DNA from: Chloroflexus aggregans DSM 9485
GTDB taxonomy: Bacteria > Chloroflexota > Chloroflexia > Chloroflexales > Chloroflexaceae
Length of the DNA stretch: 64,000 nucleotides
Direction of reading: 5' to 3'
Assembly (NCBI RefSeq): GCF_000021945.1
Contig: NC_011831.1
Coordinates: 124,001-188,000, forward strand
Shown: in pieces, positions 25,237 through 31,428 of the stretch
How positions within the stretch are numbered: the first letter of the stretch is position 1
Layout of the letters: each line of letters opens with the position of its first letter
Made by a program: the position numbers and the translations under genes
The notes under the pieces: generated by a model
What the model was told of the DNA's origin: nothing
The model's input: the letters and a program-made list of their open reading frames with translations, nothing else
Databases searched by the model: none

Positions 25237-26642
25237 TGCCGCGGATCGCGTATTGCTCGCCTGTTAACCCGGCTGCGTCGGGTATTTCCGACTATAGCGA
25301 GGAGCTGTTACCTTATCTTGCCCAATACGCCGACATCACTCTGCTTGTCGACGATGGGCTGCATCCGACGAATCCGTTCCTTCGTCAGTACTTAACCATT
25401 CAACCCCTGCGCAAACTCGAACATTTTGTTCGGCGCGGGGCATTCGATGCAATTGTCTACCACATGGGCAATAGCCCGGTTCACGCCAGAATATGGCAGT
25501 CAGCCCAACGTATTCCCGGGGTGGTGGTGTTGCACGACTTTGTGTTACACCACTTTATGCTCTGGTATGCCGCGAACGTTCAGCGTGATGTGCAGCGTTA
25601 TGTGACGATGATGCGCACACGCTACGGAGATGAGGGGTGGCATGTTGCTCAGCTCATGATCCGCTCACGTTTTAGTGCGGCTGCTTTTAACTTTCCGTGC
25701 AACGAAGATGTGCTCGCTGCTGCCCAAGCCGTGATCGGTCACAGTCGGCATATCCTCGATCGCGTGGCCGCGATCCGTCCCGATCTGCCCCGTGGTCTCG
25801 TGCCGATGGGTATTCCCTTACCACCACTGATTGACCGCAACGAGGCCCGTCAACGGCTTGGTATCCCGCTCGACCGTCCACTATTGGCGAGTTTTGGTCA
25901 TATCAATGCGTGGAAGCGGATCGAGCCAATGCTGCGTGCGCTTGCTCTCCTGCGTCGCGAAGGTATTGACGCCCATTGTGTGCTCGTAGGTTCGGTGTCA
26001 CCAAACTATGACCTCGATAGCCTAATCTGGCGTCTTGGCCTGCAAACGGCGGTAACGGTGACCGGGTATGTTCCAAGAACGCAATTTGAGTACTACGTGG
26101 CGGCAGCCGACATTTGTTTCAATTTGCGCTACCCAACTGCCGGTGAAACGAGTGCCAGTCTATTGCGACTGCTAGGTGCCGGCAAACCAACGCTGGTCAG
26201 CGCGGTCGATGCGTTTTGCGAATTACCTCCTGATGTTGCCGCGCAGGTTGATGTGGACGGGAGTGAGATCGACTTAATCGTCGCCTATTGCCGACGGTTA
26301 TTGTCCGATCGCTCCTTGGCTGCGGCGTTGGGGGCACGGGCGCGGGAATATGTTGCCACCGAACATACCCTCCCCGGTGCCGCACAGGCGATGATCCGCT
26401 TTTTGGCCGACGTATACGGTTGGCCGCCACCTCGCTTGATCCACCCCCAACCCCTCTGGGATCCAACACCGGTCTGTGAACCGGAACCGGTAGAAACGTC
26501 GGCGCCAACGATAACTGCACCTGCCCAGCCATCGCTTCTGATACAATCGGCAGCCCGCGCTGCTGCAGAGATCGGTCTGACCGAAGACGATACAGATGCG
26601 CTGCGTTCGGTAGCGGTGCGGATTAACGAATTAACCGCATGA
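25233..26642 (+). CDS. Glycosyltransferase family 4 protein
   Basis: 469 residues, GT-B fold. N-terminal half: PVNPAASGISDYSEELLPYL (acceptor-side glycine loop). C-terminal half: LLASFGHINAWKRIEPMLRAL for the nucleotide-sugar site, TVTGYVPRTQFEYYVAAADI, then LRYPTAGETSASLLRLLGAGKP with the E-x7-E region expected for GT4. The last 60 residues form a Pro-rich tail and a short helix. Likely a cytoplasmic or membrane-face enzyme adding a sugar to a polysaccharide or lipid; substrate unknown. Coupled to the PfpI gene (ATGA) and to the transporter gene (ATGA at 26639). Confidence 0.85.
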   Translation: MMPRIAYCSPVNPAASGISDYSEELLPYLAQYADITLLVDDGLHPTNPFLRQYLTIQPLRKLEHFVRRGAFDAIVYHMGNSPVHARIWQSAQRIPGVVVLHDFVLHHFMLWYAANVQRDVQRYVTMMRTRYGDEGWHVAQLMIRSRFSAAAFNFPCNEDVLAAAQAVIGHSRHILDRVAAIRPDLPRGLVPMGIPLPPLIDRNEARQRLGIPLDRPLLASFGHINAWKRIEPMLRALALLRREGIDAHCVLVGSVSPNYDLDSLIWRLGLQTAVTVTGYVPRTQFEYYVAAADICFNLRYPTAGETSASLLRLLGAGKPTLVSAVDAFCELPPDVAAQVDVDGSEIDLIVAYCRRLLSDRSLAAALGARAREYVATEHTLPGAAQAMIRFLADVYGWPPPRLIHPQPLWDPTPVCEPEPVETSAPTITAPAQPSLLIQSAARAAAEIGLTEDDTDALRSVAVRINELTA

Positions 26643-28479
26643 CGACAGCGATTGCTTTTGTCTTTACTGTGCTGGCAACGATGATCGTCCTGTTTGTCAG
26701 CGATCGGCTTCGGCTCGATCTCGTTGCCATCATGGGCATACTTGCACTCTTGCTCGGTGGCATTCTCACACCGGCCGAAGCGGTTGCCGGTTTTGGCGAT
26801 ACTACTGTACTCCTTATCGCTGCACTGATGATCGTCGGTGATGGATTATTGCAAACCGGTGTCGCAGCGTGGATCGGGCAACGACTCGGACAAATCGCCG
26901 GTGTGAACGAGCGACGTATCTTGGTGACGTTGATGATACCGGTTGCAATACTGTCGGCGTTTATTAGCTCTACCGGTACGGTCGCTATTATGTTGCCGAT
27001 TGCGATCAACATTGCCCGTCAAGCCGGTATTAGTCCGTCACGTCTCTTGTTACCGGTTGCGTATGCCGCCTTGACCGGCGGAATGCTAACGCTCGTTGGG
27101 ACACCGCCCAATATCATTGCTGCCGAAGCACTCATTGCAGTTGGTCGACCTTCGCTTGGTTTTTTTAGCTTTACTCCCATCGGTAGCCTTGTGATCATTG
27201 CTGTCACGTTGGTTATGGTACTGTTTGGAAACTGGTTACTACCGATGAGGGTTGTCTCACCTACCGAAGATACCCATGGCCCAACCCTTGCCGAACTAGT
27301 CGCCGATTATCGTTTGACCGAAGGATTGGCGCAGGTGCGGGTTGCACCAGATTCGCCGCTGGCCGGCTTAACGTTGGCAGAAGCTCGGTTGCATAGTCGA
27401 TACGGCGTAACGGTTGTCGGGATTCGCCGTTGGTCAGACGGTCAGGCTATTCCCAGCCCGGCTCGGGCGGTAACTGCCGCAACCCGTATTTTGGCCGGTG
27501 ATCTGCTTGATGTGATCGGTGATGATGCAGCGATAGCGACAATGTGCCGCACTGAGCGTGTCATCCCACAAACGCTGCAACTCGATCTCCCGTTTGGGCC
27601 AGAGTTACACGTAATGGAAGTCGCGTTGACACCACGCTCTCGCTTTATCGGTCAAACGGTTGCTACGGCTGAATTACGCCAACGCTTTGGGGTGACGGTC
27701 TTGGGTGCCCGTCGGCTTGGTCTGCCGTTTACCGGTGATTTGGCGCACGAGACGTTGCGGTTTGGTGATACCTTACCGGTGGCCGGTAGCCCAACCCAAT
27801 TGACCAAGATTCTGAATGAACAGCGTACCTTCGGAGACCTGGCTGTCGTGGCATTGCCACGCGATCTTAGCACTAGTAGCGACCGGTTTCATCGACGGGC
27901 ATGGCTGGCAATTGCGATCGTAGTAGCGATGCTGGTGTTGATGACAGGTGACTGGTTACCAACTGTGACGGTAGCGTTGTTAGCAGCGGTAGCTATGGTA
28001 CTGAGTGGTTGTGTGCCGATCAATGATGTCTATCGTCGGCTCAGTTGGGAAAGCCTTGTCCTGATCGCAGCAATGTTGCCAATGGCGACGGTACTAACCA
28101 AGACCGGCGGTGCTGCTCTGATCGCACGCGAATTGGCGACTGCGTTAGGCACATTTTCACCGTTGGTCGTTCTAGCCGGTATCTTTATCATCACCGGTTT
28201 TCTGAGCCAGTTCATCTCGAATACTGCTACTTCTGTGTTAATGATGCCAATTGCTTTGGTATTGTTCAGCAGTTAGGGTTAGCTCCCGAACCGTTCGTCA
28301 TAACGGCTGCGATCGCTGCCTCGACCGCATTTAGCACCCCGATCGCTTCGCCGGTCAACACCCTTGTGTTGGTCCCCGGAAGCTACCGGTTCGCCGATTA
28401 TGCCCGTGCCGGTATTCCATTACAGGTAGTCGTACTGGTGATCTGCTTGTTGGTCATCCCATTCTTGTTTCCGTGGTGA
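26639..28479 (+). pseudogene. SLC13/DASS-type anion transporter with internal RCK-C domains, frameshifted
   Basis: Polytopic inner-membrane protein of the ArsB/SLC13 fold with two TrkA-C-like regulatory domains in the middle (about 215-295 and 305-390, e.g. DSPLAGLTLAEARLHSRYGV). The first frame (26639-28276, 545 aa) contains the signature SSTGTVAIMLPIA and the second-half equivalent NTATSVLMMPIAL, then stops. The last 65 residues continue in another frame (QQLGLAPEPFVITAAIAAS to FLFPW, stop at 28479). One missing base near 28255-28265 would restore a normal protein of about 613 residues. Either a real inactivating mutation or a sequencing error; neighbours are intact. Substrate (sulfate, phosphate, dicarboxylate) cannot be told. 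Confidence 0.85.
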
Positions 28480-28481
28480 CT

Positions 28482-29744
28482 TCAATACCGGTATGTTGAG
28501 ATCACATTGCCGTTCCTGTCGATGAGAAAAGCAGTATCGCGATCACCATCGCCGTCTTGATCGGTATTATTCCAAACGGCTTGATTGCGTCCCCAGTACA
28601 GATGTTCATTGGTATTGATACCACTACCCGTCCATACCTGCACGCGGCCACCGGCGGGTACGACAGAAAATGGGAAGACAAACGTGGCTCCGGCCTCATC
28701 GCGTAATATCCAATCGGTTAGATCAACCGGTGTCGTTCCCTCGTTCACGATACGGACGTATTCACCCACTACATCATCACCCGGTGGATTGTATTCGATG
28801 TAGGTGATGCGTACCGCCGGTGGAATCGGCGTCGGCGTCGGTGTTGGTGGAATCGGTGTCGGCGTCGATTCATTCGTGCCTTCGGCCTGACCGATCACGA
28901 GCGGAAGAAAGATTTTCTGGGGATTGGTTGAGCAGTGTGGTCCGGCCAATGCCGCTTGGATTTCCGGTGCTACGTTGCTGAGCAGATCAAGTCCGGTCCG
29001 TTGTTCGATACAGGCGATTGAAGAGCGGTACTCAGTATAATCGTTGCTGAGACCATTGATGTTCGGCATAATCACCGCGACGACTTCAGTCTCGGCAGTG
29101 ATGCGAGCGAGATCATTATCGCCCTCCGGTAAGACGACCACGACTTTCCATAACTCGGCAGGAACAACAATCTTCCCGTTCCCAATCGTACCATTACTCC
29201 CAATTGTTCCCCCGATCACATAGGCTTCGTTACCGGCACGCACCCGGTTGCGCGTATGTTCTTCGAGCAATCGCCATGGCCCTTGGTTATTATCCGGAGC
29301 TTGCGGTACGATATTGGCGAGGTAGAAGGTCTCACGCTGTACCAGATCGCTCGAGAGACGATCGCCGGAAGGGGTGAGATGACCACGGTCGTAGCCGGTG
29401 TTGGTGTAATCACTGTGCGTCGCGTATGGCCAACCAAGCGCACTGATGGTAGGATCGACGATAAAATTGCCACTATACCGATCGGTTTGTGCCGGACTAA
29501 AATCGGTCAAGGTCAGATGCCAGCTTACCCAGCGTGCAATTCCACTGTCGCGCTGATACGCCAGTGCATATGCCTCGCGTTCGATTAAGTAGTTGTTGGG
29601 CTGGGCGGGATCGGCTACAGCATTGCTCGGATTGCCAAGAGCGAGATGTCGACTCGTTGATGTGTTGACCGCAGTCGGTACGGAATAGGCGCTGAAGCAG
29701 GCAACCCAGAGGAGAAGTAAAAGCCACAGATAGCGTCTACTCAT
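28482..29744 (-). CDS. Secreted DNA/RNA non-specific endonuclease (NucA type) with lamin-tail domain
   Basis: 420 residues. Signal peptide 1-21 (YLWLLLLLWVACFSAYS). The beta-beta-alpha-metal nuclease domain (about 45-265) shows the catalytic DRGH in TGYDRGHLTPSGDR and the metal-ligand Asn in APDNNQGPWRLLEEHTRN. After a Thr-Pro linker (about 295-310) a lamin-tail domain closes the protein: YIEYNPPGDDVVGEYVRIVN, LTDWILRDEAGATFVFP. The enzyme should cut nucleic acid outside the cell; the tail probably binds envelope or DNA. One base separates it from the upstream inhibitor gene, so the pair is an operon. Stop is three bases from the end of the convergent transporter. Confidence 0.92.
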   Translation of the reverse strand: MSRRYLWLLLLLWVACFSAYSVPTAVNTSTSRHLALGNPSNAVADPAQPNNYLIEREAYALAYQRDSGIARWVSWHLTLTDFSPAQTDRYSGNFIVDPTISALGWPYATHSDYTNTGYDRGHLTPSGDRLSSDLVQRETFYLANIVPQAPDNNQGPWRLLEEHTRNRVRAGNEAYVIGGTIGSNGTIGNGKIVVPAELWKVVVVLPEGDNDLARITAETEVVAVIMPNINGLSNDYTEYRSSIACIEQRTGLDLLSNVAPEIQAALAGPHCSTNPQKIFLPLVIGQAEGTNESTPTPIPPTPTPTPIPPAVRITYIEYNPPGDDVVGEYVRIVNEGTTPVDLTDWILRDEAGATFVFPFSVVPAGGRVQVWTGSGINTNEHLYWGRNQAVWNNTDQDGDGDRDTAFLIDRNGNVISTYRY

Positions 29745-29745
29745 G

Positions 29746-30159
29746 TCATGTCTCGATCACCTTCGTTTGTACACCGGCAACCGTACCATCATCCAGATAA
29801 CCGATAATGAGCACGATTACCGTTCCTTCCCCAAAACGATAGACCACCGGATCGCGCAAATACGCGGCTAAGGTATCACGTAATCCGGCAAAGCCAACGA
29901 GTGTCGGTAAATCATCGGTCGTATGCCACGGTTGGCGGGTTGTTAGTGGGGCAAAAAAGTGCTCAAACGATTGGACGCTCACCAGAGTGTTGAGCGGAAT
30001 ATCAAGGGCCTGCGCTACTGTCTGTGGTGATAACGTGATCATACCGAGTATGACCGGGATAAACGGGTGATCGCGTTCACTCGGCATAAGCAAGTCGCCG
30101 GTGGCAGCGTTGAATGCGGCCAGAGCAGCCGTTGTAGCAGGCGAGAACGGTTCCGGCAT
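29746..30159 (-). CDS. NuiA-like nuclease A inhibitor
   Basis: 137 residues, no signal peptide. It resembles NuiA of Anabaena, the cytoplasmic inhibitor of the secreted nuclease NucA: ATGDLLMPSERDHPFIPV at the N-terminus, SFEHFFAPLTTRQPW in the middle, and YRFGEGTVIVLIIGYLDDG followed by AGVQTKVIET at the end. This match is from memory of the family, not from a search. MPEPFSP at 30159 is chosen as start because GAGGAG lies six bases upstream, inside the longer frame. It precedes the nuclease gene by one base, so inhibitor is made before nuclease. It protects the cell from enzyme not yet exported (inference). Confidence 0.82.
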   Translation of the reverse strand: MPEPFSPATTAALAAFNAATGDLLMPSERDHPFIPVILGMITLSPQTVAQALDIPLNTLVSVQSFEHFFAPLTTRQPWHTTDDLPTLVGFAGLRDTLAAYLRDPVVYRFGEGTVIVLIIGYLDDGTVAGVQTKVIET

Positions 30160-30251
30160 AGCCATCTCCTCAGTTGATCCAAACAAACGGACTACTGAGC
30201 TACTATAGTACCATGTCGCGCGTAAAACGAGGCCTTATGCTACAATCAGCT

Positions 30252-30276
30252 TTGCCGGTATTAAGTATACCGGCAA
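30252..30276. promoter_or_regulatory. Inverted repeat between nuiA and the ATP-grasp gene
   Basis: TTGCCGGTAT-5-ATACCGGCAA, two perfect 10-base arms, in the 198-base divergent region. It could be an operator for one or both units. No U tract follows, so a terminator is less likely. A weaker dyad (ACAAT/ATTGT) follows at about 30275-30289. Confidence 0.5.
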
Positions 30277-30357
30277 CAATCTGAAATTGTGCAAAGGCGG
30301 AGTAGCAACAGATGCGGCTCCACCTGTATAGCGTGATACACGATGAGGAGGGTTATC

Positions 30358-31428
30358 GTGAGTGAGAAAAAGATCGGCATTCTCGTCGGTCGCGAGTGGT
30401 CGTGGCCGCCTGCGTTTATCGAAGAGGTCAATCGGCGCAACGTTGGCGTGCGGGCTGAGTTTATCAAACTAGGCGGGACGCGGATGGCAGAGTTGTGTGA
30501 CTACGACGTGATTGTCGATCGCATTAGCCATGAAATCCCGTATTACCGGACATTTTTGAAGACGGCGGCGCTCAGTGGAACACGGATTGTCAATAATCCA
30601 TTCTGGTGGAGCGCTGATGATAAATTCTTCGGTGCGTCGTTGGCGACGGCTCTTGGTATTCCCCATCCGCGCACCGTCGCCTTACCCTCGCATTCCTACA
30701 TTGAGGGTGTGGTTGAAGAGTCCCTGCGTAATCTGATCTACCCAATTCCGTGGAAGGATCACGTGGATTACGTCGGTGGTTTTCCGGTGATTCTCAAACC
30801 GGCGTGGGGCGGTGGCTTTAAGAAGGTCTACAAAGTCCATTCGTATGAGGAGTTGTGGCGCGCCTACAATGAGACCGGCATCGAGTGCATGATGCTGCAA
30901 GAGTACATCGCGTGGGAGAAATATGTGCGCTGCATTGTCATTGGTCGTCGCCACATCATGACGATCAAGTTTGACGCCAATGCACCGTGGCCACACCGCT
31001 ACTTCCGCGATGACAACTATCTCACACCTGACGAAGGCCGACAAGTGGTTGATGCTGCGTTGAAGCTGAATCAGGCGCTCGGCTACGACATGAACACTGT
31101 CGAGTTCGCGATTCGCAATGGTGTAGCCTACGCTATCGATTTTACTAATCCGGCCCCTGACTTTGATGTGAATTCTCTCACGCCGTTCTACTTCGATTGG
31201 GTTGTACGGACAATGGCCGATTTCACGATTGAATTGGCCTTACAGGGTCGTGCCAGGCCAGAGGAGTTTGCGTGGCATCGTTTGTTGAACGGACCAATGG
31301 CGCCGGCAACTGCTCCGGTTGCAGCAGCGACGGTGAACAGCGACCCACCGCCCCCTGATCCGGTAGAGGCACCGACAGCTCCGAAGCGCCGCCGTACCAC
31401 GAAGAAAAAGACTACAGAAGAGGCCTAA
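30358..31428 (+). CDS. ATP-grasp domain ligase, product unknown
   Basis: 356 residues. The start is the GTG at 30358: GAGGAGGG (30345-30352) is an ideal ribosome site, while the upstream ATG at 30343 sits inside it. N-terminal Rossmann-like part KKIGILVGREWSWPPAF; central ATP-grasp core GGFPVILKPAWGGGFKKVYKV with the phosphate-loop glycines and MLQEYIAWEKYVRCIVIG. The C-terminal metal site is NTVEFAIRNGVAYAIDFTNP, with Glu and Asn ligands. The tail is Pro/Ala-rich and ends in a basic run (KRRRTTKKK). It resembles RimK/carboxylate-amine ligases in fold. It lies 99 bases upstream of a second, circularly permuted ATP-grasp gene, suggesting the two act on one product. Confidence 0.82.
   Translation: MSEKKIGILVGREWSWPPAFIEEVNRRNVGVRAEFIKLGGTRMAELCDYDVIVDRISHEIPYYRTFLKTAALSGTRIVNNPFWWSADDKFFGASLATALGIPHPRTVALPSHSYIEGVVEESLRNLIYPIPWKDHVDYVGGFPVILKPAWGGGFKKVYKVHSYEELWRAYNETGIECMMLQEYIAWEKYVRCIVIGRRHIMTIKFDANAPWPHRYFRDDNYLTPDEGRQVVDAALKLNQALGYDMNTVEFAIRNGVAYAIDFTNPAPDFDVNSLTPFYFDWVVRTMADFTIELALQGRARPEEFAWHRLLNGPMAPATAPVAAATVNSDPPPPDPVEAPTAPKRRRTTKKKTTEEA

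Follow-up and report, generated by a model that had tools for sequence, protein, structure and literature searches.

A NucA-NuiA-type nuclease and inhibitor pair with an antidote-first gene order and a lamin tail in Chloroflexus aggregans

How does a bacterium that makes a non-specific nuclease for export keep that enzyme from damaging its maker? In Bacillus NucA/NucB-Nin and in barnase-barstar, a secreted nuclease is guarded in the cytosol by an inhibitor, and the gene of barnase adjoins that of its inhibitor. NucA and NuiA from Anabaena are likewise a known nuclease-inhibitor pair. The window, a stretch of 64,000 nucleotides from the 4,684,931-base, single-contig genome of Chloroflexus aggregans DSM 9485, contains two adjacent genes that raise the question again; in gene order and in the domains of the nuclease they differ from the NucA-NuiA kind. 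The relevant features are as follows:

28482-29744, minus strand: NucA-type DNA/RNA non-specific endonuclease, 420 aa from an ATG (open reading frame, Pfam, PDB, fold)
Nuclease aa 1 to about 25, minus strand: export-type hydrophobic segment (sequence, model)
Nuclease aa 39-259, minus strand: catalytic domain, with DRGH at 119-122 (Pfam, alignment)
28824-28949, minus strand: linker, aa about 266-307, with IFLPLVIG at aa 278-285 followed by a Thr/Pro-rich stretch (by inspection)
28482-28823, minus strand: lamin tail domain, nuclease aa 308-420 (profile match)
29746-30159, minus strand: NuiA-family nuclease inhibitor, 137 aa from an ATG (open reading frame, Pfam, PDB, fold)
29755-29762, minus strand: Shine-Dalgarno-like site AGGTGATC, within the last inhibitor codons, 10 nt before the nuclease ATG
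28480-30231, no strand: segment absent from three sister species, bounded by the permease stop on the left and a conserved 28-base block on the right

The product of 28482-29744 matches the Pfam family Endonuclease_NS (PF01223) over residues 39-259 (E 7.3e-44, 150.5 bits, cut-off 23) and the PDB sequences of NucA (1zm8, E 1e-54; 2o3b_A, E 6e-54), far beyond chance. Its structure model, good across the catalytic domain and poor across the tail, has 2o3b_A (TM 0.93 by target) and 1zm8 as top matches. Residues D119, G121, H122, N153, E161 and R165 are invariant in 23/23 aligned nuclease rows, while R120 is replaced by Lys in some of them; in NucA, the catalytic D-R-G-H, N, E and R are at positions 121-124, 155, 163 and 167. 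A sequence-only reading of this DNA had proposed a NucA-type nuclease here, and that identity holds. The catalytic part also matches a phage nuclease family in PHROGs (4.4e-26). At the N-terminus, the model places a hydrophobic helix at 2-17, and no canonical lipobox is seen by eye. The nucleases of relatives likewise start with a hydrophobic, export-type segment, several of them lipobox-like by eye.

The linker contains a motif of the type [FYL]LP[LY][VI] (aa 278-285), of which the nuclease is the sole carrier in the window. The motif recurs in export-type proteins of the order (L066, L061, L020 and L076), where it lies between domains, at the C-terminus or after a signal. It is possibly a sorting or anchoring motif.

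The upstream gene encodes the inhibitor. Its ATG is preceded at a short distance by GAGGAG, and an in-frame ATG two codons earlier, at 30165, is also a possible start. The product matches the NuiA family (PF07924, E 3.3e-25, 89.3 bits, cut-off 22.1) and the NuiA sequences 2o3b_B and 1j57 in the PDB (E ~1e-11), again far above chance. The earlier reading had staked the name NuiA on the fold of 29746-30159, and the fold bears it out: an AlphaFold2 model from 33 rows (pLDDT 88.8) is closest to 2o3b_B, both by Foldseek (E 3.4e-12, TM 0.89) and by VIA (Z 21.0, rmsd 1.8 A over 132 residues). In the VIA comparison, the other NuiA entry, 1j57, follows with Z 8.6, ahead of the top unrelated row at Z 5.7. 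For neither protein was an NCBIfam family found above cut-off, and PHROGs gave nothing for the inhibitor.

In the alignment, inhibitor E28 corresponds to NuiA E24 and the C-terminal T137 to NuiA T135, which is presumably an interface contact with the nuclease. E28 is present in 27/27 of the rows that span the site and T137 in 28/28, out of 28 rows aligned; in a second set, both are invariant in 33/33 rows. A passage in PMC5374557, where the chain labels are swapped, has NuiA E24 in contact with NucA D121; the same source gives an experimental pKd of 11.49 (~3 pM) for the complex and calls NuiA intracellular. The C. aggregans inhibitor is divergent (none of the 64 other rows is more than 40% identical to it, and its end branch is 1.81), so its affinity for the nuclease may differ. 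Its best 12-residue N-terminal hydropathy is 1.22, compared with 2.56 in the signal-bearing paralogue described below, and none of 47 NuiA open reading frames from cyanobacteria, Bacteroidota and one Herpetosiphon exceeded 1.9. Judged by hydropathy, no export signal is seen, and the inhibitor would thus be cytosolic.

The junction between the genes reads ...ATCGAGACATGA|C|ATGAGT, with exactly one base from the inhibitor stop to the nuclease ATG, as had been claimed from the sequence. Since the nuclease has a Shine-Dalgarno-like site of its own, AGGTGATC, it need not depend wholly on translational coupling. Scans of 28000-30600 found nothing above shuffled sequence for promoters (1 vs. 2.5 in shuffles) or terminators (3 vs. 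2.2, sd 1.4); the probable co-transcription of the two genes is therefore suggested by their layout. Upstream of the inhibitor gene, at 30252-30276, there is a perfect palindrome, TTGCCGGTAT-TAAGT-ATACCGGCAA, that overlaps a promoter-like TATACT. Allowing up to 3 mismatches, the genome contains no second site of this kind, so no regulon can be inferred from it.

The antidote-first order is shared by all linked pairs found in the window's family. All 11 are on the same strand with the inhibitor first, and the gaps, measured between the inhibitor stop and the ATG assumed to start the nuclease, are 1 (the window), 13, 13, 13, 18, 9, 10, 2, 6, 8 and 18 nt, the three 13-nt pairs also having earlier in-frame start codons. 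One of the nucleases (G405) is frame-broken near its start, and one inhibitor frame (G400) lacks its N-terminal part. Five pairs (G222, G253, G260, G375 and G400) have an AGGAG(G) ribosome site that overlaps the stop codon of the inhibitor gene; the nuclease ribosome sites are weak in the remaining five, the window having AGGTGATC. Outside the family, the order is different: 44/44 linked pairs from cyanobacteria, Bacteroidota and other Chloroflexota are convergent and 0/44 tandem, although all these pairs, inside and outside the family, are related by descent and do not amount to 55 independent events.

The convergent pairs come from several sources. A non-exhaustive scan of one genome collection gave 43 NuiA loci, 37 of them with a nuclease nearby, convergent in 37/37; in the remaining 6/43, no nuclease was found near NuiA. 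Of 22 matching plasmid records, four loci were opened, and all four are convergent. In one of these, from Nodularia spumigena (L059:4348-5013), the nuclease beside NuiA is an unannotated 221-aa open reading frame that runs into an annotated reverse-transcriptase gene. The three Chloroflexota pairs outside the family are also convergent, with one nuclease (G423) cut by the contig end. A third arrangement is found in the seven f2 genomes, where NuiA is beside no nuclease: the genes are at least 56 kb apart in three and on other contigs in four, NuiA lying near a contig end in one genome (G070). Gene order is thus not essential for having the pair.

The trees do not establish a single origin of the tandem order. 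In the nuclease tree, a clade of just the 11 tandem nucleases is rejected (AU 1.25e-5); unlinked paralogues branch from within this set, and the nucleases of G288 and G415 lie apart from the rest. When the paralogues were added and four rows from outside the order dropped, the 16 family rows formed one side of a branch, with a support of only 21. In the NuiA tree, the tandem rows as one clade are not rejected (AU 0.41).

The two genes go together in genomes as well. Among 82 genomes of the order, 21 have NuiA and 23 the nuclease: both occur in 21, neither in 59, and the nuclease alone in two (G417, 95% complete, and G428, a partial match with E 2.8e-5). In an even sample of 400 genomes of the phylum, 14 have NuiA and 18 the nuclease, with the nuclease present in 14/14 of the NuiA genomes and the four nuclease-only genomes all outside the order. 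Fisher tests, uncorrected for ancestry, gave 1.4e-17 (82 genomes), 8e-8 (34 genera) and 1.3e-22 (400 genomes). Within genera, genomes have both genes or neither: both are found in 1/8 genomes of g1, 2/6 of g2 and 2/4 of g238, counts that include some genomes that are only 80-86% complete.

In C. aggregans, the two genes are the only ones in a segment, 28480-30231, with clean edges. In three sister genomes (G206, G267 and G086), the pair is absent and an ATP-grasp-like gene directly follows the permease gene. Alignment of the flanks stops at 28479, resumes at the 28-base block 30232-30259, which lies upstream of the ATP-grasp-like gene, and continues from 30343; in G086, the block is below the BLAST limit and visible in the alignment. 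The ATP-grasp-like neighbour, so called by reading of its sequence as Pfam gave no match, is present in 8/8 genomes of the genus. The permease and ATP-grasp-like genes are apart in G118 and G134, G052 is fragmented and G404 gave no permease match, so these four genomes are uninformative on gain or loss. The segment was either gained in the window's lineage or lost in the others. A mobile element was considered and finds no support: the segment has no insertion-sequence gene, and no end repeats were seen by eye at its junctions. Third-position G+C is 0.54-0.55 in the pair, similar to the permease gene (0.53) and below the ATP-grasp-like gene (0.62). The neighbouring permease gene, CitMHS (26639-28479, plus strand), is broken by a frameshift close to its 3' end, either a sequencing error or a real lesion; in the three sister genomes, it is one intact frame of about 617 codons.

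Transfer from cyanobacteria is not supported as an origin of the pair. In the nuclease tree, the window row groups with 13 others from its family (SH-aLRT 86, not starred); the 42 cyanobacterial and Bacteroidota rows form a separate group (98*). In the NuiA tree, the window row is tentatively with the convergent Chloroflexota rows, on its 1.81-long branch and without a star.

The other departure from classical NucA is the lamin tail. Residues 308-420 match PF00932 (E 4.5e-22, 78.9 bits, cut-off 34.3). The structure model has low confidence there (pLDDT about 24-50, from too few related rows), and the tail is therefore assigned by its profile. The same part, 28482-28823, matches a phage tail-protein family in PHROGs (phrog_7043, E 8.5e-13). 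The tail had been described as foreign to classical NucA, and this is correct for 22/22 aligned cyanobacterial and Bacteroidota relatives, in which the nuclease stops after the catalytic domain. One NucA relative from Nostoc (L107:4412-5584, minus strand) has another C-terminal addition, with a weak, below-cut-off match to Excalibur (calcium-binding).

Other Chloroflexota with both the pair and the tail, which the sequence-only reading had proposed to look for, do exist. Among the linked family nucleases, the tail is above the Pfam cut-off in the window, G400, G401 and G402 and recognizable below it in G222, G253, G260 and G405; it is missing in 3/11 (G288 and G375 by Pfam; G415, which is too short). 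Unlinked nucleases of the order also have it (L023, L024, L029 and L032, and weakly L033), while none was found in the two f2 nucleases L020 and L042. Since the tail occurs on unlinked nucleases and is missing from some linked ones, it is no hallmark of the pair. Across the C. aggregans genome, eight lamin-tail matches fall in four open frames. One of these frames (L150:2127-2972, minus strand, on C1 near 4601141) has 281 codons, no obvious signal and a C-terminal lamin tail 46% identical to that of the nuclease. According to passages of PMC8289736, lamin tails are also present in DNA-degradation loci of Izemoplasmatales. No paper joining a lamin tail domain to a non-specific endonuclease was found in the literature searched, nor any relevant title on nuclease A inhibitor or a C. 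aggregans secreted nuclease.

What, then, does the pair do? It very probably works as a two-gene unit in which the inhibitor acts in the cytosol as a safety catch on a nuclease destined for export. The 420-aa nuclease would be exported by means of its N-terminal signal and would cut DNA and RNA outside the membrane, with the lamin-tail module placed after its catalytic domain. The 137-aa inhibitor would remain in the cytosol and plug the active site of any nuclease folded before export, as Anabaena NuiA does on NucA, with E28 at the active-site aspartate or metal and the C-terminal Thr at the interface. Since its gene comes first and the gaps are 1-18 nt, the inhibitor would be produced ahead of the nuclease on every message, which may benefit the producing cell. 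Passages of PMC4890671 support the safety-catch logic: Anabaena NucA induced inside Synechocystis kills the cells with some of the promoters tried, and NuiA was supplied to restrain NucA leakage. Nutrient scavenging or turnover of matrix DNA would be a plausible role for the enzyme.

Nuclease-inhibitor pairs look like toxin-immunity pairs, and the earlier reading had offered an interbacterial weapon as one role, in which the nuclease would kill neighbours and NuiA would be the immunity protein of kin. The same source, PMC4890671, repeats that such nucleases are believed to be nutritional “and sometimes” bacteriocides. Nothing found at the locus supports this idea, and it is very improbable: Pfam shows only the catalytic domain and the lamin tail, with no further domain above cut-off and thus no delivery or import domain of a polymorphic or contact-dependent toxin; there is no match among the 5,027 defence models of PADLOC; and the segment has only two genes, with no secretion-system gene among the five neighbours scanned (0/5). 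An inhibitor without an export signal would, moreover, guard the cytosol. The antidote-first order, the short gap and the presence or absence of the pair as a unit are also reminiscent of an intracellular toxin-antitoxin module, in which the nuclease would hit its own cell once the inhibitor decays. This is hardly credible for a nuclease that starts with a hydrophobic export-type segment, as its relatives do, and for genes that are convergent in the other lineages examined.

A further possibility concerns the tail rather than the inhibitor and is compatible with the safety catch. The lamin tail might be the functional point, binding DNA or the envelope and making the nuclease a surface-bound collector of DNA to be taken up. 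Extracellular nucleases elsewhere, such as ExeM and those of the Izemoplasmatales loci, have lamin tails too, and in this order the tails are on linked and unlinked nucleases alike. However, a passage of PMC6085458 describes the role of the bacterial domain as not elucidated, and another states that ExeM without its lamin tail keeps residual activity; 3/11 linked family nucleases are tail-less, and an uptake gene was found in 0/5 of the neighbours scanned. A collector seems unlikely on balance, though far from absurd, and the tail as an anchor, which the sequence-only reading had also suggested, would be a guess.

With the safety catch as the preferred reading, the pair can be set beside known systems. 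Both proteins are homologous over their domains to NucA and NuiA of Anabaena sp. PCC 7120 (PDB 2O3B, 1ZM8, 1J57) and have the same folds, and the contact residues checked are conserved. Unlike the cyanobacterial and Bacteroidota relatives, which are convergent in 41/41 linked loci (a sample outside which Anabaena PCC 7120 itself lies), the window pair is on one strand with the inhibitor first and a lamin tail added, which makes it a variant of the known NucA-NuiA system. Shewanella ExeM, as described in parts of PMC6085458, is an extracellular nuclease that also has a lamin tail domain, but its catalytic domain is of the EEP type and its tail is N-terminal, whereas the window nuclease is of the NucA type, has its tail at the C-terminus and comes with an inhibitor of its own. 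In Bacillus NucA/NucB-Nin, too, a nuclease gene adjoins its inhibitor gene, and Nin inhibits both nucleases in lysates, according to a passage of PMC5758888.

The three genomes of the sister genus g5 encode a second, unlinked NuiA of 170 aa (L075:6081-6590, minus strand; L076:6544-7053, plus strand; L077:6116-6625, plus strand). It starts with a signal-peptide-like MRVL...CTLAFA, followed by an FLPLI motif, matches PF07924 (E 2.3e-22 to 2.1e-20) and retains the contact glutamate and the C-terminal ET. Across the three pairings of g5 genomes, dN/dS is 0.17-0.25 for this copy and 0.15-0.18 for the linked one, which points to purifying selection. A related second copy, with no visible start codon, is present in G400. 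By eye and hydropathy, the second NuiA is possibly an exported nuclease inhibitor.

On its own, the window is mostly a well-supported annotation. Its wider interest lies in the gene-order contrast for one well-characterised picomolar pair, which is convergent in the cyanobacteria and Bacteroidota examined, antidote-first in this family and non-adjacent in the Herpetosiphon type; with such close homologues, it becomes testable whether gene order protects the maker of a dangerous secreted enzyme. A tentative and rather doubtful extension would be that, in this family, the convergent NucA-NuiA genes were recast as an antidote-first unit, gained and lost as a whole, and that in one sister genus the inhibitor was duplicated and the copy acquired an export signal. 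The same fold would then guard the nuclease both inside and outside the membrane and could tune its extracellular activity. Both the tail and the second, possibly exported NuiA suggest that nuclease activity is controlled at the cell surface, and an exported NuiA, if real, would represent a novel type of matrix-DNA regulator.
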